The translations under genes were made by a program, and so were the position numbers. A stretch of 64,000 nt of DNA from Apostichopus japonicus. Lineage: Eukaryota > Echinodermata > Holothuroidea > Aspidochirotida > Stichopodidae. Under the pieces are notes generated by a model, which searched no databases, was not told the DNA's origin, and saw nothing but the letters and a program-made list of their open reading frames with translations. Where the stretch lies: positions 16,816,013 to 16,880,012 of the forward strand of contig NC_092577.1 in the NCBI RefSeq assembly GCF_037975245.1, read 5' to 3'. Positions 27,961 to 54,365 of this stretch are shown here, one piece after another (positions within the stretch are counted from its first letter, which is position 1; each line of letters starts with the position of its first letter).

Positions 27961-28141
27961 TAAAAATCTAGACCCGGTGTTGCTGGAACGAAACTGATTT
28001 TACAGCCACATTTTGAGCTTCAGCTGATGGCCTAAGTGCCTTCCGACCAACAATAGCGCTATTCATGGCAGTTTACCGCGGTCGAATTCCGCATAGCTGA
28101 TTTTGTATATGGTGCTCTTTTTGCGTTCCATAGCACGCACA

Positions 28142-28502
28142 TATGGAAAGCCATTTTAACATTTAATCGGGAATTTCGGATATCTCGAAATAATTTCAGA
28201 TATCTCAAATTAAATTACAGATATCTCCAATTTATTTAAGATATCTACAAATAATTGCAGATATCTTAAAATAAAATTCAGATATCTCGAAATACCAGAG
28301 AATTTCAGATATCTGAAATTGAATTCGAGATATCTGAAATTCAATTCGAGATATCTCGAATTCAATTCGAGATATCTGAAATTCAATTCGAGATATCTGC
28401 AATTCTTTTTCAGATATCTCGAATTCAATTTCAGATATCTGAAATAGAATTTCAGATATCTCGAATTCAATTTCAGATATCTCGAATTCAATTTCAGATA
28501 TC
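28142..28502. repeat. Left terminal repeat and palindrome array
   Basis: 35-base terminal repeat, then about 17 AGATATCT (or GGATATCT) palindromes spaced mostly 21-22 bases apart and separated by GAATTCAATT-like spacers. The inner copies are the most regular, the outer ones more diverged. Long open frames here are repeat translations. Confidence 0.9.
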
Positions 28503-28636
28503 TCAACTAGTTAATTATGTGCATATTATGTAGATAAGACCTAAGTTTAGCATAACTGTAGTACAGCTATGTTCGACAACAAGATATACCTGTATGATAC
28601 AGTATGCCTATACAGTACAGCTAGAGTTAATGCGAG

Positions 28637-31600
28637 ATGGAGGTTAGTAATACTTTGAGAGGAATTTCACGACATCTTCGAACCGTTTCACGTACATTGT
28701 CCGACACTGGAGACATCGTAAACGCAAAACGAACGTTGGATTTGTGCAAAGCAAATCTTTTAAGGCTCCATGGTACTATTGACAACACGAACTTCAACAA
28801 CATTATGTCTTTTGTTGATGCCCTATTGCAAGCCGTGGAATCGACAGATTCACCTCCTTTGAACGATTCACATCACTATTTTGCAGAACGCTTAAAAACA
28901 GGTGGGTCATCGTATTTTATTGCTTGACTAGGCCTAAAGTAAGGCACTCGATCTTGGCTGTTAGGCATTTAGAAGGAGCATTATTATGTTCATTTCTATA
29001 CAGGTACTGTATATGCTCCTATCATGTGCTAACCATCCATGAAGCCTTTTAAATACCACTAAAAATTGTCCTCTGCAATCACACAAACCCAGGTCATCAA
29101 TTCATCATGACTGAAGTAATATCCTTCAATTAGTGTCAACAGATCACTGAGTAATATCATTTTGACTTCTAAGATTTCATCTTTGTTTTTAGGTGGCAAG
29201 GGTCGTCCAAAGTTAGATGTGTCAAGGCAACAACTGGAACTACTTGTTGAGAAAGGATTTTCCACAAAGATGATTGCCAGTGCTCTCAAGTGTTCAAAAT
29301 CATGGGTTTACAAGATCCTAAAGAAGGAAGGATTAAATGCAAGATCCAGATATACCAACATGACAGATATTTCTCTACGAGAACATGTTGCAAACTTGCA
29401 CAGAGAATTTCCTAATAGTGGAGAGAAGGTAAGCTTGTATAGTTAGATAATACTGCATTTATCCCTGCACTGTCTGCAAAATGAATTAAAGTGTATATGG
29501 CTTTTGCACTTAAAATGCTGGAAAATGAGAGAAAAGCAAATCACAACTTGTGAAACAGTAATAATTTATCTCTTTTCTCATTATAAACCTACAGTATTTC
29601 CAAAATATCAGCTCATGGAAGTATTTCAATTGTATGACAAATGTATCAGTACATATGCTATGGTTAAGCATTGCAGTCAGGACTACTGTAGTCTACAGTT
29701 TCAATACTGTACATGTATTAATTTCATTTTGGTTTAAATGACAAGAGAAACCTACTGTATGCATTTGTGCAATTGCACATAAAACCAGTGGTTCAGGACA
29801 TTTATCACAGCCATGTCCATACTGAGTCTTGTGCAATGAAGTCATCGAAACTTACTGCATTTTTACATTCTGGTTTAAAGGTTAACTGAGAACACACCAC
29901 CTACATATTAAATACTGTCATTCACTTCTCTTTGCTGTGATAAATATACAACAGTATTGTGCAAAGGTGCCACTATGGCTCTCAATGACATACATGATTG
30001 TTTTTAGAATGTTTTTGGAACACATGAATAAACTCTGATGGCCCTTTGAGAGTCCACCCTTTTAATGCCAATGTACATCTCTTTTCTACAGATGATGAGA
30101 AGCTACTTGAGAGCAGATGGTATTAGAGTTCAACGAAGGAGAGTTAGGTCTGCTCTGGAACTAGCTGACCCTGTGGGTACGGCTGGTAGATGGGGATCAT
30201 CAGTTTCAAGGCGTAGCTATTCTGTGCCAGGTCCTAACAGTCTATGGCACATTGATGGCCACATGAAGCTCATCAGGTCTGTTTTGATTTTCTACTGGGA
30301 AATATTGAGTACATTGGAGCTATCGCTGAGACCAACCAATAGGCAACACAGATTAAAAAGAGAAAGTGCATTCAAATTTAGAAATTCATTGAGGAAGGTT
30401 TTTACTTTCTCTTGCAAATGTAAACTTCTTGAGAAGTCACACTTAGAGGTCATCAGTATTGCCTTCAAATATGCTGCAAAAGTAAAAAATTTTGTTTGCT
30501 CAAGAATGCTCAAATTATCATGCTCAAGAGGTGTGACATGACCAGTATCCAGATGTAGAAGATCTCTGAGCAAAAAGCTCTCTATTTGTTTGTATGTGTT
30601 ATCGATGCTTTGGTCTGTTACTTCTGCAAATTTTTCAAATTGAAATTGCTGGGAAAAGTTTCTTCATACCAGCTAGGAAGATTCCCCAATCATGATATGA
30701 GCTTGCATCTTCCGGATGTTTGTAATGAAAGGTACCATGTCAGAGGTCAAAGGACACATAAAGTAGAAATGAACATTTTGCAATAACTTAATGGGGAATT
30801 ATTTTCAACCCAGAAATCATAAAGCTTAGTTAAAAAAATCTCAATATATTTAACAAAGTAATAGAGGGCAAAGCTTTTAATACTTTTTTTCATATTTAGC
30901 AGGAAGGTCCTTCTTGATAGGATATTGCATTTCACTTATCTGCAGAACAGAAGGTGAAAGGCCAGATGGCAAATTAAATAAGTTCTTCTTGATGTCAATG
31001 TTATTGTGACCTGTGCAACCATGCTGGTGTGGATTTGAGTGCATGTGTCAGTTTTATTTGACCTGTCTTGCCCAATGTAACTGCATTGGCATTGATAAAC
31101 TAGTAAATGACTCGATCACATTCATCTTGACTCCACATAAGGTTGACAGACCTGCATACACATAATTCATATTGATACATTGCTAGGAAATCCTAAGAAA
31201 GTTTTATTAAGTCCATTATCCTTCAGTCAACATCAATTTGATTGTTTCTCCACCTCTGTTTTGTTCCTTAGATGGGGTTTAGTGACACATGCAGGCATTG
31301 ATGGTTTCTCCAGACTGATACCATACCTGAGCTGTTCATCTACAAACAAAGCCACTGCTGTAGTAGATCTTTTCATGGTTGGAGCCAGGAAGTTTGGACT
31401 TCCTTCTCGAGTACGTTCAGATTACGGAGGAGAAAATGTCCTTGTTGCACTCCTAATGAACCTTATTCGTGGCACAGAGAGAGGAAGTCATATTACTGGT
31501 CGATCGGTACACAATTGCAGGATTGAGCGCCTCTGGTATGATGTGTTTAAGCAAGTCATTCAGTTCTTTTACCACAAATTTTACGAAATGGAAGATAATG

Positions 31601-32019
31601 GACATTTAGATGTTGAAAATGACATTCACATATATGCTTTGCATTTTGTGTATTTAGATCTGATCAATGAAAAGCTAGGAAAATTTCAAAAAGCTTGGAA
31701 CTCACATGAATTGAGGACGGCACATAGCAAGACTCCGGAGCAGATGTGGCTAGCTGGAATGCTTAATAACTATGGTTCAAACAAAACATTTTCAAATGAA
31801 ATTTTCCATGAAACTCGTTCCATAGAAATGAGACTTCAAGCAGAACTACAAAACAACTTATTAACTCCAGATGGTTCCGTAGGCAGAACTGAAAGAGACG
31901 GTATCTGCATTAGTGAAATACAACGTGTTGAGCTACTGCAGATTCTTGAAGGATTGCCAGATCCATTGGACAAGTATCTTAAGTGCATAGAAAAAGTAGC
32001 ACAGTATTTGTCACCATAG
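28637..32019 (+). CDS. DDE integrase/transposase, 4 exons, 477 aa, apparently intact
   Basis: Exons: 28637-28901, 29193-29428, 30092-30276, 31272-32019 (265, 236, 185 and 748 bases; sum 1434, exactly 478 codons). All three introns are GT-AG and codons join cleanly (ACA-G|GT, GAG-AAG|ATG, AG|A). Domains: N-terminal helical region (1-88); a helix-turn-helix-like segment QLELLVEKGFSTKMIASALK (about 100-130); GIRVQRRRVR (177-186). The retroviral-type integrase core has Asp222 (SLWHIDGHMK), Asp279 (SRVRSDYGGENV) and Glu314 (NCRIERLW), spacing D-56-D-34-E. It should cut and join transposon ends. Related integrases are abundant in fish and invertebrate genomes as unnamed proteins. The start is the first ATG after the left array. 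Confidence 0.85.
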
Positions 32020-33313
32020 AGTACTTCATTATGGTTGGGCCATTCTCTGGAAAATGAAACTGGCATGAAAAACCTTAAGTGTTCATCAGGACCAAATGTT
32101 ATATTTTTTGTTTAGAGGGATACTTAACAGTTTTCAGAGGGAAGTTTTCAGTTTCATATTTTTTGCATTAAAATTAAAACCATGGCATACTAATTTGCAT
32201 AAATTAGCATTATTGTAAGTTTTAGCAAAAATTTGTACTTTTTAATTTTAAATTATTTTTTCTACATGAGTTTCTAGAATATTTCAGTATCAACTATCAC
32301 ATGGAGGCAGTTGTATATTGGTTAATTCATTCATTCCTTAAGCAGAGGTTCCTGATCTTCAATTATGCATTAATAATGGAAGCTAATTAGCATAATTTGA
32401 ATGTCACACATGTGACCAAAATGCACCTCTTCAAAATTTGTATATATGCATGCATGGCATGCAAGCTATGAACAGTGACCTGCATTTGGTTTCAAAAGTT
32501 CAGGTAATAGAGGTGGAAGGGGAGGGGGAGTCATTGGGGGGGTGGATAGTAAGAGAAGAAAATTCTAAAATTGTTGACTGATAACACAGGTGGGTGAACC
32601 TTTTTAGGTTGTCTCAGGCCTAGGGAGTGGTTTCATTTAACCCTGTTTCCAAAATGCATTTAAAAAAAACAGGTGAGGTACAGTTGTTCAAATGGTAAAA
32701 TTATTTGTGTAATATCCAAAGTATAAAGCATAAAAGTAGATTTAAAGTATAAAAGATATGAAGGAATGTTAAGTAATACCAATAACACAAACGCTTACTG
32801 AAGGTATAAATTAAGAGTTGATATATCATAGGACCTAACGGCTAAAAGCATTCATATTCAGGTGGCAGTAACGAAACATCTATTCTGGGCTCAAGGTAGA
32901 TACTTATGGAAATGTTATTACCTTTTACTGTTACAACTGTTATTACAAGCTTATTCTTTTCCTGTTAGTCCTATGCTGAGCATTCTTACGAATGTGCAGA
33001 GGGAATACTCTAGTTGAAACAATGGCAGTTGAGTCAAGCTAATAAGAGTTTCATTAAATTCATAACCTTTGTCACCTTTAATGTTTCCCTGTTGTATGAA
33101 TGGCAAATATATATTCTGAACTATTCACAAGAAAATACAAACAAAATAAAACCAAAAATGAATAATAACTATTCAAGAAAACTGAGCTATAAGCCAAAAC
33201 AATAAAATAACTGTATTAAAAGCAAGGGAGGAAACATAGTGCATAATTACTTGGTGTTTTTCACAGCAGCAATAGAAGTAATTCATGGTAAAAATGCTTG
33301 TTTCACTGTTCTT
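32020..33313. other. No gene; spacer of the giant element
   Basis: AT-rich stretch downstream of the integrase gene without coding signal. It includes the integrase 3'UTR. Confidence 0.5.
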
Positions 33314-34021
33314 AATAATGAAGAGCAACCCACAGGTTTACTCCCTACAGTAAGTCTATTATAATGACTGCAGTACACAAGAAGAACATTGAAGTAAATT
33401 TAGAACATAAAGATGATATTTCCATATTAATAAGCAAGAAACTGTACTTCTAAATACAGATCATGGAAAAAAATCTCGTTAAATATTAGATAAAGCAGTG
33501 TGTGAAGCAAAGTTGATGTATCGCTTTACATATTGTAAAAGAATATTTGATAAAGCCTTTCAACAATCAAAAAAATTAACACATTAAAGGAAGTGTTGCA
33601 ACCAAATACGAATGAATATATATGGACGGAATATGAAAATCTCTCTCCTTAGTACTTGAAAGTCCCAGAATAATGAAGAGCAACCCACAGGTTTACTCCC
33701 TACAGTAAGTCTATTATAATGACTGCAGTACACAAGAAGAACATTGAAGTAAATTTAGAACATAAAGATGATATTTCCATATTAATAAGCAAGAGACTGT
33801 ACTTCTAAATACAGATCATGGAAAAAAATCTCGTTAAATATTAGATAAAGCAGTGTGTGAAGCAAAGTTGATGTATCGCTTTACATATTGTAAAAGAATG
33901 TTTGATAAAGCCACCAACAATAAAAACATGAAAACATTAAAGGAAGTGTTGCAACCAAATACGAATGAATATATATGGACGGAATATGAAAATCTCTCTC
34001 CTTAGTACTTGAAAGTCCCAG
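33314..34021. repeat. Tandem duplication, 2 x about 355 bases
   Basis: 33314-33668 and 33669-34021 are nearly identical copies, each starting AATAATGAAGAGCAACCCAC and ending CTTGAAAGTCCCAG. A few substitutions and a short difference after GATAAAGCC separate them. Non-coding. Lies between the two convergent genes. Confidence 0.85.
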
Positions 34022-34826
34022 ACACAAAGACAAGGGGAGAGGCATTAGAAATGGAATGATCCTGGCAAGGTGGATAATGCAGTTTCTTGATTAAAACAGT
34101 TGATAAAAAGTGAACTTCTATATAAATATAAATATGTACCAAGGATGGAAATCACAAAAGTTTTCTTAAAAAGATACAAAGGAAGATCATGAAACAAGGC
34201 AATTTCAGGTGGCAAGCAAAGATGATTCCAATTCTAGTTGGTAGAATCTTTGGAAGTTCACAGATCAATTTCAAAGCAAAATAAACAATGCAAGAAGTAT
34301 GTACCCGTATTTTACATTACATGAGCTGCACCTTTAAGTAAGAAACAAAGATTAGGAAAACCAAGTGGTATTCAATAATCAATACACATTGAATAAAGCT
34401 AAAATTTCAAGAAATAATCGAAAATACAAATGAACAATAAGTTTCAACATAGAGATAAGAGCACACTAAAGTCAACAATGGAGTTCAGTAAAATGCCCTC
34501 AATTGAGCCTGCATGTAGGAAGCTGTCAGACTTTGCCTTAAACTGAACAAGTGACCATCATCAAAACAGCAAGCACTTTTTCTACCCAATAATACAATTT
34601 GAAATGTGAGTAAAGATATATCATATTTGAGTTAATGTACAGTATACAAACTAAACTACCTGGCAATTTTGCCTTGCACAAATTTTAGTTGCAGTTTTCA
34701 GAGGGCATGTAGCAGAAAATGAAACACGATGTATGGATGACTAATGTTCTTAAGGGATTAGTTGTACAACTGTATACAGCTACACAACGCTATCATGATG
34801 TTATCAACTCACTCCCTATTCAATAA
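34022..34826. other. No gene; HECT 3' flank
   Basis: No coding region. This is the 3' side of the HECT gene on the minus strand and likely contains its 3'UTR. Confidence 0.5.
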
Positions 34827-37800
34827 TTAGGCAATTGTATACTCGTAGGAATGGTCGTCTGAAAGAAAAGCAGTCATCTCACGCTTAAACTCCTGGAAAC
34901 TGTGGTAGCTTGTGCTCACTTCCAAAAGATTAGAACAAGTGTGGGCAACAGGTCGGCGCATTATTCCAAAGGTCCCAACGTAGGATACACTTATCCCATC
35001 TACTGGCAAATTTACTGAGGCAGTGACAAATATTAAAAAGTTAAGTAACTCATCATTATTCAGTCCACGTAGGTACTCCTTTAAAAAATAAAATGCTCTT
35101 TCTTCTTCGGGACGCAAATCTTCAGCAGTCTTCAATGAAGAAATAACTTTTGTCACTGTGGGTCTTTGAGCATCCATTATGTATTGAATATGATCCAAAG
35201 TAAGCTGTCTCCAAAATGTTTCAAAATGGGTCATGGGTATCCCCTTTTTCATGAGGGCATAGAATCTTGATGGAGACTTGACAAGGATTTCTTCAGCAAG
35301 AGTTAAAATTTGATCATTTATCTCTTCCTTCTTTGGCAACTCTAACAAGCCATTGACTGAAAAGAATGAAGAAAGTCTGTCTTTCTGAGTTGTAGTTAAA
35401 GTAGAAAAATCAAGCATTGCTTGTTTGAGCAAGAGCCTTTCAGCTGGGCTGACAAAGAGGAGAAAGTCCTTCAGCAAATAGTCTGGATTAATATCACCTT
35501 CAAAAACCTTGGCAACAACAGCAGACTTAGCAATTTGACAAGGAATTGTCTCAGTCAAAGCTGCAGTGTGTGCCAAAATTCTTCCAATCGTTGTATACTT
35601 AGTACCTTCCTTTCGGAAGCGGTAGAGTGGAATGGATGGCACAGTAACATTTTCACCATGAAAAAAATTCTGTGAGGCTTTAATCCAAAACAATGTCAAC
35701 ATCTCTTTTGTCAATCCTCCAAAGTCATCACCGCTTTCTCCTTCAAAGGTAACTTTAAGTTTATGAAGGCACAAGTTTTCATCACTATATGCAGCCATCA
35801 CATCCTCCATTAAGTGTGCCCTTCTAATTTTGATTTCTCTTTCTTCCAAGAGGCTCATGTGCAGGGTTGAAACAGCTGTAGGAAGGAATAGGAAAACAAA
35901 TCGTTAGTAAAGCTTAAGGGGTCTGACCCCAAATAATTTTTCACCTCCAATAAAATCGATGGGTTCTTCCCCTCAATAAAAACATGTTTAAAATCAAGTT
36001 TAAACAGTATCCAGGCTACCAATTTTGAGATATCGTGCGTATCATGTTTTCAGTGTTTGACTCTTTGGTGACCTTTGAACCATAAACAACAAACTTCTCC
36101 CTCTCCAAAAAATACACCTATACACTAAACATGACAAGTGTCCATCATTGCAGTCTTGATATATCGTGTTGTCAAGCTGGGTGTCACACACACACATTCA
36201 TGCACGCAATCATAATGGTTTAAAAGTCTACCTTCTTTTACTTCTCCCGGTACATCATTGAGAGCTGAAATCGTGGTGTTGTCTTCAACTGTAAAATAGA
36301 AAAGAATATGCATGAGAAGTCCCTATCAATCACCAGCTTTAAATGACACACTCCATCACTCTAATCTAAAAGATGTAATTACTGCACAATAAATTTTTAC
36401 AATTTCCTTGATGATGCCATGATATTGACATCCAGGTAGAGAACAATCTGGCAGAATCAAGTGAATTTCAAAATGGTATTTTTATTCTCCAAGTTCCTCA
36501 AAACTACTTGATTAACAAATATGATTACTAGTGAAAACATTCTTGCTGCAATAACACAAACTTTGCAAAGTTTGTGCAACTCTATGAATATAATAATGTG
36601 CAACATGGAATCAGTGACATGATCGAACTACAACATTGGTGTAAAGGCTCTATGATTGGAGTAAAGGCAATTACTCGTTGTTTGGTTTGATTGTTCAACA
36701 CCAATTGTTACCCTTTTAATAATGACATGCCACCTTTATAAATCAATTGTGTTCTTAACCTTGACCCTAAGGTTCCTTTCTCATAATTGCCTCATGCAAT
36801 CCCTTTTAACTTGGATCTTATGTTCTGAAAATTGCGAGTCTTTTACTTTACTTGCATGAACAGAACGGCTGATTTCATAGTTTTCTCGTTAGGAAATACA
36901 CATGAGTGCTCAGAAGACACTGCAGTTAACTAGTTAGCAGCACATAAAGCACACCAAGATGTGCGGTCTATTAGTACCTTCAAATCTTTAAAAAGCCTGA
37001 AAATCCAAAGCAATCTGTTATTCTTTTCCAGCAATATCAACAACTTCACAACACTGCAAGTTCTAACCCCTATACAGGGTCAGAACCTCCACCCGTGATC
37101 AATCAACAGGACACTGCGTATTGCACATGATGTCAACAGGTCACTTTTTGGTCTTAGAAGTGCAGCGTACATATTGATAATTGGTATCTGATTGGAATGT
37201 AGTATTGCAAGTTAAGTAATTACTTACTCTGACTGCAAGTCAGATGTGTTCTTATTTGTTTTTCTGATCTCTTGTGCTGAGTCTGATCCCCAGTGTGGGA
37301 ACACACTCTATGAGATCAATGTTGTTAACTATTACATCGAATGTACATTTATCTCCTCAAAGTAAATAGAATATACTATTTTCCTTTGCATAATGCTGAC
37401 TTATTACAGACAGTTTGGTGCCAGAGTATAATTTTTGGTTTAACTTGCATTTGGGTTTTGAAGCCAGTTATGTAGAAAATATTCAGGACTTTTGCCAAAT
37501 TCTCCAAATTAAATTTAAGGACAAACAAAACCCAAAACTACAATATCCTTCATACTTCATAGTATATACATACTCTACCACTCCCTGGTGTTAAAATTGA
37601 AGGTTTGCAAGGACAACTGAATTTTAATGACTTTCCAATACCTAAACACTTTTTCAAGGAATTTAGGAACATTCAATCACTTTTCAAGGACTAGGAAAAT
37701 TTGAGGACTTTCAAGGTTTTCAATAACTGCTATGAACTTTGTAAGTGGAACATGCTCACCAAATAAAAATCTCTGAAAAACAGGAGTTCATATTGAGAAA

Positions 37801-40800
37801 TTGGGTAAACATGAATGAAGAACATCTACTGTCCAGATCCTTTCTGATGCTGTATAGTACATTGTGCAAAATTAAATCATGAAAGTGAAGTTACAAAACA
37901 ATTTTACACAGACTACAACACAGCCTTCAGCTGGAGCAATTCAATTAGACAGCAGAAAGCCATAGTATTTGGAATATTTTCACACAGTGACCTATAGGAA
38001 GTGTCCTTTCATTAAATTGCATTCACATTCTCAGTATCTTTTAAGTTCTTCAAATTGCTATGCTTTTGAATGTAACAAGTTACCAATGTAATCCGACACC
38101 TCATGAAGGCATCATTAAAGATGGCAAAATCTTACCATCAAAATCCAAATCAATCAAAGGAGGTTCACCATTTTCAATGGTATCTATGAGAGAAACTGAG
38201 AAGGATAGGAGGAAGGGGGAAGGAGAGAGAGGAAATGTATGAAATGCAATAAATTTATATAAGAATCCAATTTAAATTTCCTGAAAAAGAAGTAAAGAAA
38301 AATCTCAAATTCAATCAGGCACACTTCATTGTATTAAGGTCCCTCTGCTTTGTTCATAGACCATCAGAGGGATGATCTAGGTATTGAAATTGTCTTAATG
38401 GATTTATAAACCATTTGAATTCTCATATTGCAAAATTTCTACTGGCTTTTTTGGTCTTCCATTGTGCCCCACCTACCCATAAAATACATCAAGACTCCAG
38501 TAAGAAACTATATGGTATATCAACAACACTGGTCAGTTACCAACTCAAATTGACCAACGATCAGCTGAGACTCTACTCCAGGAGCTTATTTTAGCAACAT
38601 CTCATTACACCCTCTAAAACCCAAATGGCACTGACAACTGTACTGTAGTCTACCAACAAATTCAGTTATTGAATATTTCCTTTTTTTTCTAACTCTTTCC
38701 TTACACCCATTAATCCATTATATGTGTGTGTGATCTACAAAAAAAGGTACAGACCATCTCTAAATCAATATCATTGTACCAATCACGGACCAACTTCATT
38801 AACCAGCAACTTTTTAGCTTTTGAATGGTGAGGTTACAGTAAATACATTTTGAGCAAGGACCATACCAATGGTATAGTAATTTATCTACAAATTCCCATG
38901 TACCTTCTTTATCACAACAGCCAAACATTTTAAAAAGGCTCTTCAACATACAATGTACTGCACACAGCATGCATGTGGCACTATTTTGCAAACGAAATTG
39001 ATTGATTGTACTCTACCACAGTGGTACTTCTTATAAAAGAGCAGGCAAGTTACCTGATGAAAGAGTAGCAGAGGATGATGATGGTACTGCTGGTAATGTC
39101 AAATTCACACCTGAAGCTGTAGTGTCATCGGTTCTAGATGGTGTAACATCAATAGAGGTTGAATCATGAACACCACTTGTGTGTGGTGTTGAAGCACTGT
39201 CTGTAACAGAAATAAACTGGGCTACTCCATTTTCATATATATACTTTTGTTATTTAACAACAGTGTAAGAGGTGGACTTCACATAAACTTGGACTATGGT
39301 TTGTGTACCGCCATGAATTTCTGATCAGTATACTGTACTCTTCAGACACTGACCATTAATCACACACTTAAACATACAGTAATACTGTTTATATTGTTTG
39401 AGACATCAATTCTAACATTTACATAATGTTGGTATTTAAGAGATATGACACTATGATTATTTGCCATAGGTTTTTTGACAGTCAGATGTAAATTAATAAA
39501 CATTTGGTTCAAATATGTAAATCAAGAACAGGTTGTTACTTGTAAGTATAGATATTAGATTCGTTCCCACATATTTTAATAAAACAGTTAAACCCACCTG
39601 TAATTAGTCAAAAATGTATTTCATTTGCTAAATAAAGATTTAAAGATTGATTGTTCTGCAATTGTTATCAACACTTTGACTTCAGTTGTATTCACTATTT
39701 AACAACACATAGAACATATTGACAAAGGAAACAATTAGTGCCATACCTTGCTGGTTACCTCTTTGTGGATTGAAGCTTACAGTTGGAGTGCCAGAGGCAA
39801 GACCCTGTTAAGGTGAAGATAGAAAAAGATTGAGAAATGATCATTGTCAATTACAGTGCAACACTTACTGTATGGTGTCATAAGTAAGTTTGTCAATCAA
39901 TATGACTATTTTCCTTGATTCCTCAGCAATTAATGATGACTGATTTCCTTCCAGAATGGGTCAATCTCAGTGTTCTATGTTGTTGTGACTTTAGACCGAA
40001 AAGACTCTGCCTTGTTTTCTAACAAGTGTCTGTTTTTCATGAATTAAACTAGCTGATATTCATCATACAATTGCCTAATAATTAATTTTTCATTTACAGC
40101 AAATTGGAGGATACAACATGCCTAATAAGAACCATTCCTTGCGAATATTCTGACATAAGACATTCTTCATCAGTACATGATTATACTATTCACACTAACA
40201 AAGCTAGCTTAACAAGCTCACATTTGGATATGCATGGGTTTACTAAGTATAGTTTTGAATGCTTTTGTATTCAAGACAGTATACACAAATATGAAATGTT
40301 TTTAGAGACGCATAATCTAATTTACACATTATTGCAATATGCAAATTCCCATGTTTGGCCAAAACATACCTCAGAATGTACTGAGACTCCAGGCAGGTCT
40401 CTCCGTGGGATTATTAGAACTTTTCCTTTGCCCACCTTCCCTTCCAGTTCTTTTATTGTCTGGAATTCAATCTTCTTTACAACTCTGGCCTTATCACAAT
40501 GTCCAAGGTCAAAACCAACCAGGCCAAGTGGTGCATTGGGAAAACAGGCATGAATATACTCCTCCAGTTGAGGTTTTGCCCATGTTCGTATAATTTTTGC
40601 TGCCTCTTTAGTAAAGCCTGCAAGAAACAGAAAATCATCACTTGAGGTTCACAGACTTCCTTTTAACATGCTTCTCTGCATCTATGATATACTATACAGT
40701 GCCGATAATACAGACAAAGTCAAACTCACAACACTAATTAACAATACTTTAATCTCTTCTTTTTTTCACGGCTCTTGAAGATTCAATTAGTTCAAAATCT

Positions 40801-43800
40801 TAAGGAATTAGACACAAAGGTCATGTCATCTACTACATCATGAAGAGCACATCAGGGAATTATGCCCATTACTTTAGCATTGCCAGTTGCTTAAGTCAAA
40901 AACAGGTTTCCTATTTTGTCGCTTAAAACACAATGTCACTTTAATCCATGTAACATGTTGAGTGTGGATACATGTAGCTGAGAATATAATGTATAAAATG
41001 TATGAAATGAAATGTATAAAATGTGTAAAAAGGAATGTATAAAATTCATCTGTAGCTTTAAGTTATTATGTACGTAGGATACAGATATTGATCTCTGATT
41101 ATCTCAGATGATGTTTGTCCTGTTCAACATCAATGGAAAAGATTTTATTTATACCACATTTCTAAATATTTTATGAAAATTTGTACTTGTATGTACTCAG
41201 TTAACAACTTCACAAACATTCTTTTAAATAATAGAACATTTTAGAAATAATTGTAAGTTATATCAGGGTCAATCCATGCCAAATCAACAGTGGCCTCCAC
41301 GTCGACCCTCTCAGAATCGCCTGAAATTGATATGGTGTCTTGCCATATGTCTCAAAGGATGAAATTGGGCAAAAAAAAAAATTAAAAATATTTCGTTGCT
41401 AGGATACGGCCCCGCCTAGCAACCAAATCCAGATTGCATTTTAAGCGCCCTTAATTTGTGTCAAGTTTGGAGTCATTTTTTGCATAAATGTAAAGTATTT
41501 TATGCCTGATATTGCAGATATTGTGGAAGACATGTGGCCAGTCTTTGAATTTAGCTAATTTTGAGGAAAATTTACGGTCTCAATTTTTCGTAACAAGTAA
41601 TTAAAATGGCAGAAAATGAGATAGGGGTCTTTTCTGGCCCTACTTTGAGTGTGCTCTATATTCACAAGCAGAGGCATGTTTGAGTTTTAATTTCCATAGG
41701 ATCCTTGTCCAGTGGTAGTTGTACGGGAAAAGTGCAAAAAAAAAGTCAAGCGGGTCGTACGTTTTACGAACAGCGCCCTCAAACTTAAGAAATCTCACTT
41801 CTGGCCCTAATTGGGGGTCCATTTTGGGCCTGTGGGTATTTTTTTTTTTTTTTTTAAATAGCATTTTTCAGGAGCGTATTGACCCTATTTTTAAAAACTC
41901 AAGTCAAAAAGTTGTGTATTTTGTGTTATCTACTCAAATTTACAACTCGAAAATTGCGAAAATCACTTCGTTCATATGTATGAAAATGCTTGCACAAGCC
42001 GATTTGAGTAATTCAAATGACAACAACTTCATAGCATTAGCAAACAGGTGCTTAACAATTAAGAGGGTGGTCCACTAGCATAAGGGCTACAAATAAACTG
42101 CATTTTCAGGGTCATATGCCCAACGATGCCTGTGAACAGCGCCCTCAAACATCACATTTTACCAATATTTTGGGCTATTTTGGGCATTTCAAGGTCAAAT
42201 TTGGTCGCAATTAAAAGTTTTATTTTCGATTTTTAATACAAAACTAGTAAGATATGTATAGTTATGATGCAAAGAATGAGCTAAAACATCTTTTATATTA
42301 GTTATTCATGCTCTGATGAGCAGCTTAAAGTGGCGTATATGAGAGTTACATCAGCTCTACAGAAACATGCTTGCGAGGGCAAACAGTGGTAAACATTGTA
42401 TCTTCATTCAAGGAGATGTTAAACAACATTAGAAACTATTGAAATGTATTTATTAAAAGTGTTCTGTCTAATACTCTTTGACTCCCTGTCACCCCCCCCC
42501 CCCCCAGCACCCTCCCCATAGTGCACTATGCAGATTTGTATACATACAGTATGTGACTGACTTTTACTGCATAGAGACTGCATAAACATGCATTCAAGGT
42601 ATACTGAATGTTTTGGTATGGTAATCTTCTGCTTCAAATTGTCTGTATGCATGTAACCCACCCCTCCCACACACATCCTCTACCCAACCCCTATATCAGA
42701 ATAGAAAATGAATGTGAACCAGTGCGTACAGTGTGCAATATATATGTGTGTACATGTTCTGTATAGTGTTATTTTACACCAAGTACTATTAAATACACAC
42801 TGTCCAAAATCATGTACAGTATACACACTGTACATGTATGTACTGGTTAAAAATTCCTTTTGAAATATTAAGTCTTTTAATTTAGTGAATTAGCAAATGC
42901 ATACACTTCATTGCAAATATTTAAAAAGACATTGAAATATGCACAGTATGCACTATGCAGTGTGCACTATATATGTGTGTACATGTTCAGTACAGTGTTA
43001 TTTTTCACCAAGCACTTTTAAATAAACACTGTCCAAAATCATGTACAGTATACACACTGCACATTTATGTACTGGTTAAACATTCCTTTTAAATTATTGA
43101 AAGTCTTTTAATTTATTGAATTAGCAAAAGCATACACTACATTTCAAATATTTAAAATGACATTGAAATATGCACAGTATTGAATGGAATGACCAGTACA
43201 CAGTGTGTACTGTACATGATTGTGGACAGTGTGTATTTATTTGCTTGGTGTAATATAACACTGTACTGAACATGTACACACATATATAGTGCACACTGTA
43301 CGCACTGGTTCACAATTTTCTATTCTGATATAGGGTTGGGTAGAGGATGTGGGTGGGAGGGGTGGGTTACATGCATACAGAAAATTTGAAGCAGAAGATT
43401 ACCATACCAAAACATTCAGTATACCTTGAATGCATGTTTATGCAGTCTCTATGCAGTAAAAGTCAGTCACATACTGTATGTATACAAATCTGCATAGTGC
43501 ACTATGGGGAGGGTGCTGGGGGGGTGGGGGTGACAGGGAGTCAAAGAGTATTAGACAGAACACTTTTAATAAATACATTTCAATAGTTTCTAATGTTGTT
43601 TAACATCTCCTTGAATGAGGATACAATGTTTACCACTGTTTGCCCTCGCAAGCATGTTTCTGTAGAGCTGATGTAACTCTCATATACGCCACTTTAAGCT
43701 GCTCATCAGAGCATTAATAACTAATATAAAAGATGTTTTAGCTCATTCTTTGCATCATAACTATACATATCTTACTAGTTTTGTATTAAAAACCGAAAAT

Positions 43801-46800
43801 AAAACTTTTAATTGCGACCAAATTTGACCTTGAAATGCCCAAAATAGCCCAAAATATTGGTAAAATGTGATGTTTGAGGGCGCTGTTCACAGGCATCGTT
43901 GGGCATATGACCCTGAAAATGCAGTTTATTTGTAGCCCTTATGCTAGTGGACCACCCTCTTAATTGTTAAGCACCTGTTTGCTAATGCTATGAAGTTGTT
44001 GTCATTTGAATTACTCAAATCGGCTTGTGCAAGCATTTTCATACATATGAACGAAGTGATTTTCGCAATTTTCGAGTCGTAAATTTGAGTAGATAACACA
44101 AAATACACAACTTTTTGACTTGAGTTTTCAAAAATAGGGTCAATACGCTCCTGAAAAATGCTATTTAAAAAAAAAATAAAAAATACCCACAGGCCCAAAA
44201 TGGACCCCCAATTAGGGCCAGAAGTGAGATTTCTTAAGTTTGAGGGCGCTGTTCGTAAAACGTACGACCCGCTTGACTTTTTTTTTGCACTTTTCCCGTA
44301 CAACTACCACTGGACAAGGATCCTATGGAAATTAAAACTCAAACATGCCTCTGCTTGTGAATATAGAGCACACTCAAAGTAGGGCCAGAAAAGACCCCTA
44401 TCTCATTTTCTGCCATTTTAATTACTTGTTACGAAAAATTGAGACCGTAAATTTTCCTCAAAATTAGCTAAATTCAAAGACTGGCCACATGTCTTCCACA
44501 ATATCTGCAATATCAGGCATAAAATACTTTACATTTATGCAAAAAATGACTCCAAACTTGACACAAATTAAGGGCGCTTAAAATGCAATCTGGATTTGGT
44601 TGCTAGGCGGGGCCGTATCCTAGCAACGAAATATTTTTAAATTTTTTTTTTGCCCAATTTCATCCTTTGAGACATATGGCAAGACACCATATCAATTTCA
44701 GGCGATTCTGAGAGGGTCGACGTGGAATCGACCCAAAAATCTGTTGATTTGGCATGGATTGACCCATCATGTAAATGTCACTGCAAATTTAACAAGAAGC
44801 AGCTGTAATTGTGCATAACCTATTGTATATTGTATTGACATGCCATGTGATGAAAGGTTGTTGAATAGAACAGTGAGTAAAACAAATAATGTAAGGATTA
44901 AAATGACTTGAATTTTCTGTCTCAAATATGAGGTAATGAATTCAAATGGATGATGTAAAAAGAATACTACACAACAGACTGAAATAAAACAATGATCATG
45001 TGACATATGATTTGTAATCAACCATTACAATACTGGTCCAGGGGTACATGAATATGGCAGTAGAATGAGAACAGAGTATTGAACAAGTGCTTTACATAAT
45101 TGCACAGCTGGTACAGTTATATGCAATGAACAAGATTTTCATTTCTCATTTTGCTTACCATATCCACTTTCTGAAAGATGCTTAACTTCATTGGGTGAGG
45201 GGAAAAAGTCAGGGTTGCATCTTCGGAACAAAAACACTTTCGCTTTCCATGTGACCTCCTTCTTTCTTCCTCGCTTCCTTACTGAATTTAAAACAAATAA
45301 TGTCACATTATTGGTCTTATAAAAGAGCTTGCTTGCCTTTTGCATTCTTGAACCCATTTAAAGTATGTGCCAGAACTATGTGCCACCCATTAACAACTAT
45401 GCTGTGAGAAATGTCTTCAGACCTCCAGTTTACAAGGAACCTTCTCTAACTTAAAGCTTATGGTCCTTTGTCCTTATAACCTGACGGAACCTGAGAAAGT
45501 TATCAAAAGACAGCCTGTCAGAACCATATACAATCTTAATTTTAAAACCTGGATCAATCACCTTGTAACCAGCTGAGTTCAAGGGAGGTGAGATTAACCT
45601 TGCCTAATTTCTCACCGAGTAAGAGTCTTGTTAAAGGACTGATTGACACCAGAGTATGCTTCTAAACTGTCTCAAGCTCTTGTGACAGGCGATGAATTGA
45701 AAATTATTATTATTGCAATATTTGCCAGATGATACAGTATTATGAATTTCCGAAAAGATAATAGTTTCGTGTTGATGTACTGGTTGACATTCAGTTACTT
45801 AATGCCTTCTAATTAAATGGATTAAAACAGAAGGAGAAAGTACATTGCAAATAGTATTTGTTTATATGACATTGCAATCTGCACAGTATTGAGTTGAGTG
45901 ACCTTAAAGTACAATACCCAGGCTCAAAAACATGTGGAACATCAAAACATGCAAAAAACGTTTTTCTGTAAAAATCCCAAATTTTGAGGATTTATCATTT
46001 CAAAATAAGGCAAAACACCCTCCTGAAATATGTTGTACAAACAGGGTGGTACTATATCTCTTCCAGAAAAACTAATCAGATTTTTTCAACATGACTCATC
46101 TTGAGTTATTGGCTGTCAAAGACGACTGCTTTTGTATATCAGAGAATCTTTACAATCTCAAAAATTAATATTGAGAAATGCTAGAAACCTGAAATTTGGT
46201 AAGGTGTAGGAACTTTATACTTACACTTAAAGCATAAAACTCTCACAGCTCTAACATGGTTACATTGGTAAAAAAGTGACATCAAAACCTTTTCCTCATG
46301 CTGAATCGCAGCAGGAAATATGGCAACTGTAGAGCTGCACAACTTGCAAATATATTATGGGAAAGCATTGTAATCATTATTTTGTATTGTTTGTACCAGA
46401 CATAATAACCTCTGAAAGAATCAAGTACCCTGAAGCAACGTTTAGGAGCAATTCATCACTACAAATAGCATACTTTCTAGCGAAATATACAAAAATTAAA
46501 TATTTTTGCACCAGTTGTTAAGTTGAGGTAACTCACAAGACAATGATTTTATAGCCTCATTTATAATTTTCTATTTCTATGGGATAGACTTTACAGGCAT
46601 CTTAAGGTAGTAGGATGTTTAATTGCTAAGAAATGAGACATGAAATGCCAATTGCCACGGTGGCGTCAAATTGCAGAATTTCAAAGTGTGTTAGATTGGC
46701 CAATATTGAAGCAAAGTAACTGAAATTTTTGTTAAGCTAATGGTGTTCCAAGCCTACAATAAATTTGGGAACTTTTGGAGAGGGTCCAGCAACATATGTA

Positions 46801-48285
46801 TATGGAGTTGTCTGATGATCGCTTAAAGCGTGAAACTCTGAGTAACAACTACTAGTACTGTACTAGTGTTCCACTAGTCTCAACCTTAATATCCTGGGCA
46901 GGCTAGGCTAAGTACAGTAGGCTGCCGCAGTGCCACTAATATGTCTTAATGCTGTGTGTGGCTTAGCATCTTTTATCCTGTCATTCCAATAGTTAATGCC
47001 AATAAATCATCTCCGAGCAACATTTTAGGAGTTGACTACCTGGACGTCAAATATCTAGGCCTTACTGTATATGCTAACCTACAATAATGTGGTGGGCTCA
47101 TAATTGACACACTTCGGGATTTGATTAACAATGTCTATCAATGCAAAGCCAAAATCACTCAATTGTATTCGTTTTTCATGTGTAGTTCCTCAGAAACTAA
47201 ATGATCTCAAAATATTTATTATTCTGTACCTACGCATTTAATTGAGCAACATTTGACCACAAAATGTCAACCGTGTCAAGTTCTTTCATACCCTAAATTG
47301 ACATATTCGTGGATAAGCTTACTGTTGTGTAGGCCTAAGTATACATCCATTGACTTTGGATGCTGGTTGCTATGCTCTGAGCTTCAGTCTTTAGCAGACA
47401 GGTCGTTCCTTGAAAGTGGTGGTATCATACAGAGGGAATTTTGGTTATTTTTAAGGGGTAATATTTCCAAATGCCAAAAGAATGTTCAAAACTTGGAGGG
47501 GGGGGGGAGGGGGAGGTGTTAAAAGCTTTAAAAAAAATTGATCAGCATAGGTATATACCTGAAATGGATTAATACTCATCAAATATTTTGCAACTCAGTA
47601 TGGCTGCAAAAGTTAAGCGTGCCTGCTATATATTGTTGCTATGAATATTTGAAGGTGCGTCAATTACAAAGGTGTGTCAATTATGAACCTTTACTAATAC
47701 GTATAGGCCTACTCTACAATTATGCACACATAAGAACCCAAATAAATATTAAAACATCAACATGTGGGCATCAGGTCCCTTTTTCTTCTGCCAAACAGTA
47801 TGTAGGCTATATGCTACTTGCTAGGCCTAGTAGTAATACTTGTGTGCAAACATCTGTTATGTGATGTTACTGTATGTGTATTGTGAACAATCTAACCTAG
47901 GCCTAGGCTATCCTATGCCATTAAAATATTTTCACTATTTTAACTTTCTAGCGTAACACACAACCTAGGTCCAATCTGGGATATACCTGTAACTTAAGCC
48001 TAACGTTATACTTATAGGCCCATGGCTATAGGCTACTGTAGCCTGTAGGTTATGCTGCTTATGGCCCCTACCTCGATTGCCACTAGAACTTGGCAGGTTC
48101 GGACTCGATGATCGCCTCCTTCTAAACGATTGCCTTGTTTGCTCAATCAAACTCGGCATTGAGCTAAGGTTTGGCCTGTCATTTTCTACAGGGTCAGGAA
48201 GTTGGAAGTCATCATCATCGTCTAATGTCTGCCGAATGGCTGCTTGAGCGTTATTTACCAGATTGTGCAAGTGATTGACATCCAT
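34827..48285 (-). CDS. HECT-domain E3 ubiquitin ligase, 8 exons, 647 aa, apparently intact
   Basis: Exons (5' to 3'): 48285-48072, 45281-45159, 40617-40370, 39804-39747, 39200-39054, 38183-38136, 36288-36232, 35875-34827. All introns are GT-AG. The sum is 1944 bases, exactly 648 codons, so every junction keeps frame. Residues 1-71 have an acidic run (DDDDD) and a basic run (FRRRRSSS). RKRGRKKEVTWKAK follows (possible nuclear signal), then a family-specific region with WAKPQLEEYIHACFPNAPLG and a Ser/Thr-rich acidic linker. The HECT domain (about 310-647) has FEGESGDDFGGLTKEML and ends with the catalytic Cys612 in RPVAHTCSNLLEVS. It should transfer ubiquitin to a target. Similar HECT proteins are named G2E3-like in animals. 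It starts 240 bases inside the right array and converges on the integrase gene. Intron 2 holds a foldback element. Confidence 0.85.
41266..44765. mobile_element. 3500-base foldback (giant palindrome) element
   Basis: Starts GGGTCAATCCATGCCAAATC and ends with the reverse complement. The direct repeat ATCA flanks it (41262-41265, 44766-44769). The two halves are inverted copies almost end to end: bases 41266-42841 pair with 44765-43183, and short open frames recur in mirror positions (41719-42078 and 44303-43944, three differences in 119 residues). The middle (42842-43182) has a further direct copy of the inner arm. No transposase. It sits in intron 2 of the HECT gene. High arm identity implies recent formation or gene conversion. 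Confidence 0.85.
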
Positions 48286-48527
48286 TTTACCTAGTCTTGT
48301 TATGTACCGACTCTAACTCGTACGTGAGCCGAGAGCTAGGTATACTTTCGTCGGTCTCATTTATGCTACATGTATGTACTAGGCCTTACGTTAGCCAGCA
48401 AGCACGCTAGATTCAATCCCCCATACGTCGACGCGACGACGATGGCAGCCCCCTGTATACGTACTCACTGTCACTTTCTGTAGCTTAATTTTTCGCGCCT
48501 TTTTATGAACTTATGCATATGCATTTC

Positions 48528-49932
48528 AGATATCTCGAATTCAATTTCGGATATCTCGAATTAGAATTTCAGATATCTCGAATTAGAATTTCAGATATCT
48601 CGAATTCAATTTCAGATATCTCAAATTCAATTTCAGATATCTCGAATTCAATTTCAGATATCCCGAATTCAATTTCAGATATCTCGAATTCAATTTCAGA
48701 TATCTGAAATAGAATTTCAGGTATCTCGAATTCAATTTTGGATATCTCGAATTCAATTTCAGATATCTGAATTAGAATTTCAGATATATATTTAAGTATG
48801 CTTTTTGGCACACCAACCATGATGAAGAGAGCTGACCCTCTCATTCTCCATTATGACTCACATGATATAGAACAGGTTCATGTTTTTAGGTACCTTGGGG
48901 TGCTTTTGGACAGTACCTTAACTTTCAAAGACCATTTATCTATGATTTGCAAGAAAATATCCTGCCGTCTTGGGATACTTGGGAGGGTTAAGAAGTATCT
49001 TCCACACAAATACAGGATTATGGTGTACAATAGTTTGATAAGCCCCCACTTTGATTATGCTAGTTGTACCTGGTCTAACACCTGTGCCAAGTATAAAAAA
49101 TGTCTGGTATCTCTGCAAGGAAGAGCTGGTCGGATTATTCTAGATCTTCCTAGGACTGCACCTACAGCTGATGTTCTCTCAGCTCTATCCTGGATCCCTA
49201 TAGAGCAAAGATGGAATTATCACCGTCAGGTTTTTATGCATAAAATCCACATAGCAGCTGCTCCTGACTATCTCTGTGACAAGTATGCCCATGTCTCCTC
49301 GAGTGAATCTGCCACAAGAGCCTCTACCTCTGGTGGTTTCTGCCTTTCACATTCCAACACTATTTGGGGGAGACGTCGTCAAACTTGCCATGGGGTTAAT
49401 CAATGGAATGCACTGCCTCGGCATATTCGTATGTGCAATAACACTGATACCTTTAAAAATAAACTAAAATGTGCAATTAGAAATGGCCTGGCTTTCTGGA
49501 ATCTTTGAAATCGAATTAGATTTTTATTTTTATATATATATATTTTTTTATTTTTTATTTTTTTATTTTTATTTTTTTTATATTTTTTATATTTTTATAT
49601 CTATATTCTGTATTTATTTATGTGTTCTGTTTGTTATATTTTGTATGTTTTATATGTGCAGGGATCCTGGGGAGAACACTGGTTTACCAGTGACAGGACC
49701 CCTGGTTACGAATAAAGTTAATAAAAAAATAAAAAAAAATATCTCGAAATCTATTTTAGATATCTCGAATTCAATTTCAGATATCTCGAATTCAATTTCA
49801 GATATCTGAATTAGAATTTCAGATATCTCGAAATCTATTTTAGATATCTCGAATTCAATTTCAGATATCTGAAATAAGAAATAATTTCAGATATCTAAAA
49901 TTCCCGATTAAATGTTAAAATGGCTTTCCATA
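48528..49932. repeat. Right terminal repeat and palindrome array, split by a LINE
   Basis: 48528-48790 holds about 13 AGATATCT palindromes at 21-22 base spacing with GAATTCAATT spacers. 49741-49897 holds about six more, followed by the 35-base terminal repeat (49898-49932). A LINE fragment separates the two parts. Compared with the left array, spacer and core are the same. Confidence 0.9.
48795..49741 (+). mobile_element. 5'-truncated LINE (CR1/L2-like RT C-terminus and 3'UTR)
   Basis: An open frame from 48798 to 49508 (236 codons) encodes the C-terminal region after RT: MLFGTPTMMKR, VHVFRYLGVLLDSTLTFKDH, SLISPHFDYASCTWSNTC, GVNQWNALPRHIRM and FKNKLKCAI. An AT-rich 3'UTR follows, with AATAAAGTTAATAAAAAAAT at the end. 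The frame has no stop, so the insertion looks young. It landed inside the right array. A clear target duplication is not visible in the repeated flanks. Confidence 0.8.
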
Positions 49933-49938
49933 CGCACA

Positions 49939-51506: not shown

Positions 51507-54365
51507 GGGCAGGTCCAAGCTATTGTATCCCTACAAGCCAAATTTCAAACTTTACTGAAGCACCCTAAATGTGGTGTCATGTTAAAGCTGAATTATTGAA
51601 GTTTCAGATTTTCATAATTTTTTTTAATTGTTGTGCCTATTCGAACAATTACAGCCGGCTAATTTGCATAAATTCAAATTGCAGTTTGACGTACGGGACA
51701 TTTGGAATCCTATTTCCCTGCCAGCAATATGAACTTATTGAATATAAGTTATGTGGGACATGATACACCCTTCCTTCCAATAAATTTGACATATTATGTT
51801 TGAGGGTTCATCAATTAAATATGCTAATTAGCTAGTGTCCAAATACTGATGTCCTGTACGTCACAATTTTCAGCACTTTTTTTCAAATTTTGATATGGAG
51901 GAACAATTTTTTTTGGTGATATTCTGTAAAGTTCTAATTAAGAACATTGTTCAACAAAATCCATCCAAAAAAATTGATATAATATTCACAGCAAATCTAA
52001 TTATCAAAATTAAAAATGTGACGTACGGGACAAAATGTGACGTACGGGACATAGTGTGGGGGAAACCCTGTATTTATACAGTACATAATATTGGCAGAGA
52101 TGAACGCAGAGACGTGATTCGTAGCCACAAAAACGACTAGTTGACTGAACTTTGTAGCGTTAAAAGAAGTACAATAAGATTCCAGAAGAGATTAAATAGT
52201 CAAACACGTAACTGTAGTTTACTTCAAAAAACAATAAAAGTGTTTATTTAATCACTGCTTCTTATCGGGAGGTTTTCAGCATTGGAACATGTAGATGGAA
52301 ACAAACATGACGAAATATCAATATGATATTTCGCAATCGTACAGTAGCACGTAAACAAAATATCTCCTTATAGGTTAGAGGACTTGCTTACTGTACACTT
52401 ATACATATATATATACAAGTTAAACAGAAAAACAAAGTAGGTACATAAAAGAAAACAATAATAACAGTCCAGGCAAAAGTGGACTTTACCAACACATAAT
52501 AAACTGGCATGGGCTCCAATGGGGACCTCTACTTGAAACCTTCCAATGCTTACAAATTTATTTTGTTGAAAGATGGTAGTTGCAACTTATAATCCCTGCA
52601 TGCCTGAAGAGCACATCATGGCTTCAAATAAACCATTGACCAATGACCACCAACAGCCCAGGTGGTGTTCATTAAACTATCGGGAAGTCAATTGTGTGTG
52701 TGTGTGGGATACAGAATCATCTACAATGCTATTCAACATTGACATTGAATGAGGATGACTTCAAGAATGTTGAGTTTGCATTTCAACATTTCGTAGGCCT
52801 ATTGTGAAGTGTGACTATCATGACTGTGCAACAATGTTCTTGTGTCCTGAACTTAGATAGTAGACATTGATATTTTTAGTTACAAGTGTAGAGTTTGGCT
52901 CGCCCAATTTTTGCAGCGGACAATCACTCATGAGTTTGTTCAATAACCAGTATTAGGTCTATAGAGTTTTCTTTGTTGTACTAGTTTCATAGATGGACAT
53001 TATGTGGACGTTACTTTGGACATTTTGATATGTTTTGAATGGGAAGGATCATATTTCAACTTGAGGGTCAATAGTGGGGGAGTATGATACAGTGCTGTAC
53101 AGTATATACCAAAACAGTTTTGCACCAAAACTTTGCATCTTGAATCATTTGTGGTCTAACAAAGCTAGAATTGATGTTATGAGTATTTGGTCTGGTAACC
53201 AGTATTAGTTTTCTTTGTTGTACTAGTTTCATAGATGGACATTATGTGGACGTTACTGTGGACATTTTGGTACAGTATGTTTTGAATGGGATGGGTCATA
53301 TTTCAACTTGAGGGTCAATAGTGGGGAGTATGATACAGTGTTGTACGGTATATACCGAAACAGTTTTGCATCAAAACTTTGCATCTTGAATCATTTGTGG
53401 TCTAGCAAAGCTAGAATTGATGTTATGAGTATTTGGTCTGGTAACCAGTATTAGGTCTATAAAGTTTTCTTTGTTGTACTAGTTTCATAGATGGACATTA
53501 TGTGGACGTTACTGTGGACATTTTGGTATGTTTTGAATGGGATGGATCATATTTCAACTTGAGGGTCAATAGTGGGGAGTATGATACAGTGTTGTACAGT
53601 ATATACCAAAACAGTTTTGCATCAAAACTTTGCATCTTGGATCATTTGTGGTCTAACAAAGCTAGAATTGATGTTATGAGTATTTGATGAATGTGTAGAG
53701 TAAATTTATACTTTACGCATTCCATGTTTTATGTAGTGGAATGATCTCACAAGTACAGTCACTGCTCTTTTTGATCCCAGAAAGAAGGAAATATGGCATG
53801 AAATTACCAATGACATTGTTCTGGCATATCCAAATTAATGTTTTTATGTAGAAATCAGCTTGTTATGGTATATTCAGGAATAAAAATATGAGTTTTCATA
53901 GTCAATTTTTATTTGGACAAATTGTCCCGTACGTCACATGTCCCGTACGTCACAGGACAATTTTCATTTGTGTACAGTAATCACTGAACTGGAATGGCTT
54001 CATATTTTTTTCTAATATGTTACAGCTTAGCCCTTGGAACCTGGAAGGTTAGGCTATTCACTAGTTATAACAGCTTGATCACTGCCCTCCTAATTTCAGA
54101 GGGATTTCAGCTTTGCTCTTTAGTATAAGTAAAGAAAGCACAAAATTCTCTGGTCCCGTACGTCACACTGTACATTAATTAAGATGGGACCTAATTAAAG
54201 CAAGTGTAGGAAATCTTCATGCGTTTGTACAGTAATAAAGTAGCAGCAATAACAAATATGAAAACCTGAAAAAGTTTCTGGAAAATAGATTTCTCATAAC
54301 TTTTAGACACATTTAAGTCTCTGAAATGCCCCGTGCGTCACAGTGCAAATAGCTTGGACCTGCCC
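51507..54365. mobile_element. Non-autonomous DNA transposon with repeated GTGACGTACGGGACA
   Basis: The ends carry GGGCAGGTCCAAGCTATT as an inverted repeat (51507-51524 and 54348-54365), flanked by the direct repeat GATA (51503-51506, 54366-54369). The left third has the motif GACGTACGGGACA (51680, 52020, 52035 and a variant at 51852). The right third has it inverted, as TGTCCCGTACGTCAC (53930, 53945, 54155, with a variant at 54328). Three tandem repeats fill 52944-53686. No transposase frame was seen. Confidence 0.8.
52944..53686. repeat. Three tandem copies of about 248 bases
   Basis: Copies start at 52944, 53196 and 53442, each with TAACCAGTATTAG and ending GATGTTATGAGTATTTG. Identity is high. 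Non-coding, inside the 51507-54365 element. Confidence 0.9.

Follow-up and report, generated by a model that had tools for sequence, protein, structure and literature searches.

IS3EU has been a transposon superfamily in Repbase since 2013. According to passages of PMC10045372, its members have TA..TA ends, are usually flanked by 6-bp target-site duplications (TSDs) and lack the HHCC motif; in rust fungi, according to passages of PMC12730594, they have terminal inverted repeats (TIRs) longer than 30 bp with TAYGG..CCRTA ends. The same passages describe cargo capture by fungal IS3EU elements, with TET/JBP genes moving between superfamilies, and TET+ elements in which an alpha-kinase gene stands opposite to the transposase gene with a TET/JBP gene between the two. 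Here we analyse a window of 64,000 nucleotides from the sea cucumber Apostichopus japonicus (C17:16816013-16880012 of a 671.6-Mb assembly, the genome searched throughout) and find that positions 28142-49932 are one transposon of 21,791 bp in which both genes, a DDE integrase and a predicted HECT-type ubiquitin ligase, are open. We consider it very likely that this is an IS3EU/GingerRoot-type transposon with a HECT second gene, and that the HECT gene has been inherited together with the integrase.

A two-gene transposon with IS3EU ends

The terminal 35 bases of the element (28142-28176, plus strand, TATGGAAAGCC...) are the reverse complement of 49898-49932 (minus strand) with zero mismatches, and both flanks read CGCACA (28136-28141 and 49933-49938), a 6-bp TSD. 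Beside each TIR lies a subterminal array of GATATC-centred palindromes, with 16 centres on the left (28172-28506, period about 21 bp) and 18 on the right, where a 951-bp insert separates an inner part (48523-48787) from an outer part (49739-49895). Spacings between centres are 20-22 bases in 28 of 32 cases, and the density of the motif in the rest of the window is 0.38 per kb. The integrase and HECT genes each begin beside one array and then converge. The sister family F2 likewise has a perfect 35-bp TIR (TATGGCAAGCCGTTTTAC...; 179 genome ends, 0 in the control) and two GATATC arrays (27 and 22 centres, 42 of 47 spacings being 20-21 bases), and the termini of both F2 and F1, the family of the window element, read TATGG..CCATA at both ends.

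The integrase gene has four plus-strand exons joined across GT..AG introns into a protein of 477 amino acids, identical over all 477 residues to the public protein P0001 of A. japonicus. Exon 1 (28637-28901) is followed by exon 2 (29193-29428), a helix-turn-helix region whose Pfam matches are under their cut-offs, by exon 3 (30092-30276), which extends as far as the start of the DDE core and its first Asp, and by exon 4 (31272-32019), which contains the rva_4 DDE core, identified by Pfam and predicted fold, the C-terminus and the stop codon. The core matches Pfam rva_4 at 293 bits (E = 1.4e-87), and the rve profile, at 22.8 bits, stays below its 32.6-bit cut-off. D222, D279 and E314 are invariant across a 20-protein alignment, and we assign these residues as the putative DDE triad. 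An AlphaFold model of the protein (mean pLDDT 78.9) has the retroviral intasomes of RSV and MMTV as its closest matches in the PDB and IstA and TnsB among its top matches, all of modest quality (E from 1.8e-5, TMq 0.23-0.32). A Pfam scan at E up to 1 gave no zinc-domain match that could represent an upstream HHCC domain.

The second gene lies on the minus strand, between 48285 and 34827, and consists of eight exons, every one in frame, that encode 643 amino acids. Exon 1 (48072-48285) and exon 2 (45159-45281, present in protein P0121 and conserved in family F2) precede exons 3 to 7 (40370-40617, 39759-39804, 39054-39200, 38136-38183 and 36232-36288), and exon 8 (34827-35875) holds the catalytic HECT domain, the active-site Cys (PVAHTCSN) and the stop codon. 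Pfam recognizes the HECT domain at E = 3.6e-10; a profile of the C-terminal part matches HUWE1 (E = 1.6e-14) in an alignment that extends through the active-site Cys region, and Foldseek matches a model of the F2 protein to the HECT domains of Tom1, HUWE1, Rsp5 and NEDD4 (E = 1.2e-13 to 4.2e-13). The element's second gene is thus predicted to encode a HECT-type E3 ubiquitin ligase. Its N-terminal part gave zero Pfam matches above cut-off, and the F2 model predicts a separate N-terminal domain there (residues 111-180, pLDDT 58-81 by blocks of ten). Direct comparison confirms what the original prediction, an earlier reading of this DNA, had reported of its architecture: a 35-base TIR, CGCACA flanks, palindrome arrays at both ends, and two convergent, intron-bearing genes with in-frame exons that start next to the arrays.

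The original prediction further held that the element lacks Maverick genes and forms a distinct superfamily; the first of these claims is supported and the second is not. Judged by its sequence, the element belongs to the IS3EU/GingerRoot kind and is not a new superfamily. It has the TA..TA termini, perfect 35-bp TIRs of the TAYGG..CCRTA type in both F1 and F2, and a DDE core of the rva_4 family with a sub-cut-off helix-turn-helix region upstream, no HHCC domain and a predicted fold resembling retroviral integrase, IstA and TnsB. A 6-bp TSD is found at the window element, at a second copy, at three F2 insertions and at 20 independent short copies, and in single form at an empty site, as set out below; the termini, TSD length, TIRs and missing HHCC domain are those given for IS3EU/GingerRoot in passages of PMC10045372 and PMC12730594. 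A new superfamily or a Maverick derivative is very improbable. Like Maverick/Polinton elements, the element is large and has an integrase and a 6-bp TSD, the last not being diagnostic, and rve narrowly exceeds its 32.6-bit cut-off in two relatives (P0003, 32.9 bits; P0050, 33.1 bits). It differs from them in its TA..TA ends, in having rva_4 instead of rve and in the absence of a polymerase-sized open reading frame (ORF), the longest ORFs being 358, 290, 245 and 163 amino acids. A Pfam scan of nine of its ORFs placed rva_4 and HECT alone above cut-off, and so showed no polymerase B, ATPase, protease or capsid among these nine. We reject a Maverick derivative because of the ends, the integrase family and the missing polymerase-sized ORF, and a new superfamily because of the fit to IS3EU.

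Pairing and co-inheritance of integrase and HECT genes

We scanned the genome for both genes, grouping 143 matches of the rva_4 profile into 83 integrase clusters and matches of the HECT protein (49) and profile (96) into 80 HECT clusters, and matched every integrase cluster to whichever HECT cluster lay closest, up to a limit of 20 kb; the resulting counts are lower bounds because the searches return best candidates only. A HECT cluster lies within this distance of 43 of the 83 integrase clusters, and in all 43 pairs it is downstream and on the opposite strand, the other three arrangements having no examples. Random placement produced 0.28 pairs on average and at most 3 in 1000 trials; it used approximate lengths for some contigs and ignored the crowding on C17, and the single orientation is independent of both. 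The pairs draw on 42 of the 80 HECT clusters, because a single one serves two integrase clusters on C11; among the unpaired HECT clusters are ordinary genes of the host as well as fragments. Stop-free cores spanning at least 150 of 194 positions occur in 25 integrase clusters, 19 paired and 6 unpaired. Constant adjacency, which the original prediction had proposed as a check, is therefore borne out in the uniform arrangement of the pairs but not at the 40 integrase loci for which no HECT cluster was detected within 20 kb, and the possibility it raised that integrase and HECT are ordinary single-copy host genes does not hold.

Two further observations came from the same survey. Nearly two-fifths of the integrase clusters (32 of 83) fall in C17:15-26 Mb, an 11-Mb interval that is about 1.6% of the assembly and includes the window at 16.8 Mb, which makes the interval either a hot spot or a place from which copies fail to be removed. 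Alpha-kinase was rejected as an alternative partner gene here: the one locus found in the genome, C19:15.91 Mb, is separated by 0.4 Mb from the integrase cluster closest to it.

The two genes have also diverged together. Across five families, F1 to F5, identity is 24-56% among HECT domains and 34-50% among integrase cores. Their distance matrices are correlated (Mantel r 0.88, with an exact p of 3/120 permutations), and the active-site TC is retained in the HECT domains of all five. Since HECT has diverged in step with the integrase and has kept its catalytic Cys, it appears to be an old, co-inherited transposon gene. Comparison of translated ORFs between F1 and F2, covering F2 minus a 1.5-kb stretch, found the integrase and HECT exons to be the only likeness besides opposite-strand shadows and one array match. 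The left ends of F3, F4 and F5 also read TATGG, as judged from a comparison of two copies for F5 and from the motif in one copy each for F3 and F4. That the HECT gene is instead a passive cargo, a host E3 gene captured, perhaps repeatedly, without a role in transposition, is improbable. Such capture is known in fungal IS3EU elements, where TET/JBP genes cross superfamilies (passages of PMC12730594), and it would suit the integrase clusters without a detectable HECT gene; it fits poorly with the single order and orientation of all 43 pairs, the agreement of HECT and integrase distances, the preservation of the catalytic Cys at such low HECT-domain identity, and the lack of any other protein-level likeness between F1 and the compared parts of F2.

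Relatives of both proteins occur in other animals. The integrase has 1309 matches, and the 120 listed include ants, beetles, fishes including sturgeon, molluscs, corals, a fungus and others. A search with the HECT-domain alignment gave 39 matches, in ants, beetles, sturgeon and acorn worm; this alignment was used in place of an earlier homologue search that had returned 5 matches and was probably swamped by low-complexity words. A fire-ant HECT protein aligns with residues 63-646 of the 648 of the F2 protein at 32% identity, N-terminal domain included. Scans of viral contigs with the integrase, the integrase alignment and the HECT alignment found no relative. In bacterial genomes a scan found five contigs: two weak bacterial relatives, and three in a sponge-symbiont metagenome-assembled genome that are probably host sponge DNA. 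A set of 40 HECT proteins had no match in these five contigs, which are only 3.0-4.2 kb long. On one of the probable sponge contigs, ORFs that by sequence look like those of a Gypsy-type retroelement lie downstream of the rva_4 integrase.

Several observations weigh against a conserved two-gene transposon. For 40 of 83 integrase clusters, including 6 of the 25 whose core is long and open, no HECT gene was detected within 20 kb; the ligase may not be needed, may have been lost or may have diverged beyond recognition. In the second F1 copy the integrase core is broken into overlapping matches that contain stop codons, and a third F1 locus (C22:24.257-24.260 Mb) has kept a left end and integrase exons 1 to 3, with no core or HECT match among the matches listed. 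The Mantel test compares five families only, of which the first two are closely related. Beyond F1 and F2 a right end was searched for in F5 alone, and the 10 kb examined there contained none. In other animals, pairing is suggested by the co-occurrence of both protein families in ants, beetles and sturgeon, not by adjacency. With these points set beside the evidence for co-inheritance, we advance a wider reading tentatively, as possible rather than probable: that in a major branch of animal IS3EU transposons a ubiquitin ligase of their own is a second protein required for transposition, in an association predating the split of the animal phyla, that a ubiquitin step, which would disarm host silencing or take the transpososome apart, is built into their mobility, and that some lineage-specific animal HECT genes are transposon genes.

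Copies, insertion sites and likely recent movement

The 35-bp end has 586 matches in the genome with at most 3 mismatches (282 and 304 in the two orientations), and a control read backwards has 0, so that the copy search proposed in the original prediction reveals a real transposon with many copies. The empty site that it had also proposed to look for exists at C17:24.315 Mb, where a duplicate of the flanking DNA lacks the element and has a single CGCACA. The joined flanks match this site without gaps at 277 of 284 positions, 102 bases left and 182 right of the junction; the outermost left bases of the query, which are dispersed repeat, are unmatched there. The second F1 copy, at C17:21132537-21151772 (19,236 bp), has both genes, the TSD CGCACG and one mismatch in its right TIR. 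It is without two inserts present in the window copy, at 41266-44765 and 48788-49738, which arrived in the window copy later.

The first of these two inserts is a nested foldback element of 3.5 kb, outside the element proper, with 1.4-kb inverted arms that are 98-99% complementary, and copy 2 retains the site without it. The second, on the plus strand within the right array, is probably the 3' piece of a non-LTR retrotransposon; it contains most of the 245-amino-acid ORF, whose sequence looks like the C-terminus of such a retrotransposon and for which a Pfam scan returned YidD alone, under cut-off (E = 0.013). Tandem repeats are found near the element at 52944-53686 (251-bp units) and 57952-58810 (400-bp units).

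To characterize insertion sites, we surveyed 36 of 38 loci around the ends, leaving out the window copy and copy 2, for left and right ends 200-3000 bases apart. Identical 6-bp flanks border 22 of the 41 end pairs, against 25 of 1486 (1.7%) when the flanks come from ends unrelated to each other, and identical 7-bp flanks border none. Two-base flank matches occur in 27 of the 41 pairs and are common because the target starts and finishes with CG. The remaining 19 pairs, which include internal and composite ends, match at 3 of 6 positions (13 pairs), 2 (3 pairs), 5 (2 pairs) or 4 (1 pair). The 22 matching pairs represent 20 independent TSDs, because three belong to one tandemly repeated locus: 935-bp copies at C1:12112220, 12117512 and 12122778 share a TSD and lie about 5.3 kb apart, an insertion amplified within a tandem array. 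CGNNCG is found in 13 of the 20 independent TSDs, and in 15 of 25 once five full-length insertions are added, compared with 0.13% of window positions outside the element. Insertion is thus by 6-bp duplication of a CG-rich target with the consensus CGNNCG, and the short copies that share these ends are probably mobilized by the integrase and HECT proteins.

Family F2 provides the evidence for recent movement. Four full copies of 20.4-26.0 kb hold both genes between perfect ends: one at C16:29793053-29813839 (TSD CGCCCG), one at C17:6325041-6345475 (TSD CTCCCG) and two on C12 that have the same TSD (AGTACG) and identical flanks, and are therefore a single insertion duplicated with its surroundings, leaving three independent insertions. 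Two stretches were compared between the C16 and C17 copies, and identity is 99.7% in the one of 3.7 kb and 99.9% in the one of 1.6 kb. Such closeness between copies that sit at different places and have separate 6-bp TSDs makes recent movement likely, in line with the suggestion in the original prediction that the transposon may still be active. Derivatives of about 3.1 kb and 8.9-9.5 kb (on C1, C2, C3, C4 and C15) also lie between F2 ends; in five of about 9 kb, integrase or HECT is absent among the matches listed, and these may carry something else.

Possible roles of the ligase and known systems

From these features a mechanism can be proposed in which the integrase would bind the arrays and TIRs, excise the element and reinsert it. 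By analogy with its family, the integrase would cut and join both ends and so generate the 6-bp duplications, which are observed, and the GATATC palindromes, which recur about every two helical turns, are its probable loading sites. The HECT protein would act in trans as a helper, with its separate N-terminal domain selecting the ubiquitin target. Recurrence of the pairing across many very different related elements suggests that the ligase helps the element to move or survive, and because the catalytic motif has persisted throughout the divergence of the integrase, we infer a needed function in trans. On balance, then, we predict that the HECT protein is probably a transposition helper rather than passive cargo.

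What it would act on can be stated with less assurance. In the variant that we favour, though tentatively, it may act by removing the host factors responsible for silencing or blocking the element. Ranked second, and rather doubtful, is action on the transposition machinery itself: the ligase would ubiquitylate the integrase or strand-transfer complex for removal and gap repair, or would cap copy number. The E3 (RING) part of RAG1 and the remodelling of MuA by ClpX are analogues for such turnover. The fixed convergent plan of ligase and transposase and the conserved catalytic motif agree with it, as does the layout of RAG-like (ProtoRAG) transposons, which according to PMC7204232 also have two convergent genes; it is weakened by an N-terminal region in which no Pfam match above cut-off hints at a partner. 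With removal of host factors still preferred, either variant would connect the ubiquitin system with DNA transposition in a directly testable way, and the CGNNCG target preference and two-turn GATATC arrays are ready test substrates. Annotated animal HECT genes may also prove to be transposon genes, for example fire-ant hecw-1 (P0127), whose N-terminal region resembles the transposon protein.

Compared with the host ligases HUWE1, Tom1 and NEDD4, the transposon protein has the same catalytic HECT domain and active Cys but is short and has its own N-terminal domain, common to the A. japonicus F2 and fire-ant proteins. RAG-like transposons, in which RAG1 carries E3 (RING) activity, differ in having an unrelated transposase and a RING instead of a HECT domain, placed within the same protein. 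Styx of Zymoseptoria is related to IS3EU, with a 36-bp TIR, a 6-bp TSD setting and four coding sequences; it is fungal, and the main text of PMC10853768 mentions neither HECT nor ubiquitin. The available text of PMC4255032 does not mention HECT, and a literature search for IS3EU together with HECT, outside whose reach lay most subscription papers, bioRxiv and Repbase Reports, found no paper. Within the same limits, searches for HECT beside transposon terms, judged by titles and abstract openings, brought up no account of such a gene. Where TET+ fungal IS3EU elements have an alpha-kinase opposite to the transposase (passages of PMC12730594), the sea cucumber element has HECT as its convergent second gene. 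In its TA..TA ends, 6-bp TSD, DDE integrase and absent HHCC domain it agrees with IS3EU/GingerRoot as described in passages of PMC10045372 and PMC12730594. The IS3EU superfamily, whose definition rests mainly on termini and transposase, thereby gains, in an animal genome, a second old and conserved gene: the type of transposon is already known, and the HECT gene is its new part.

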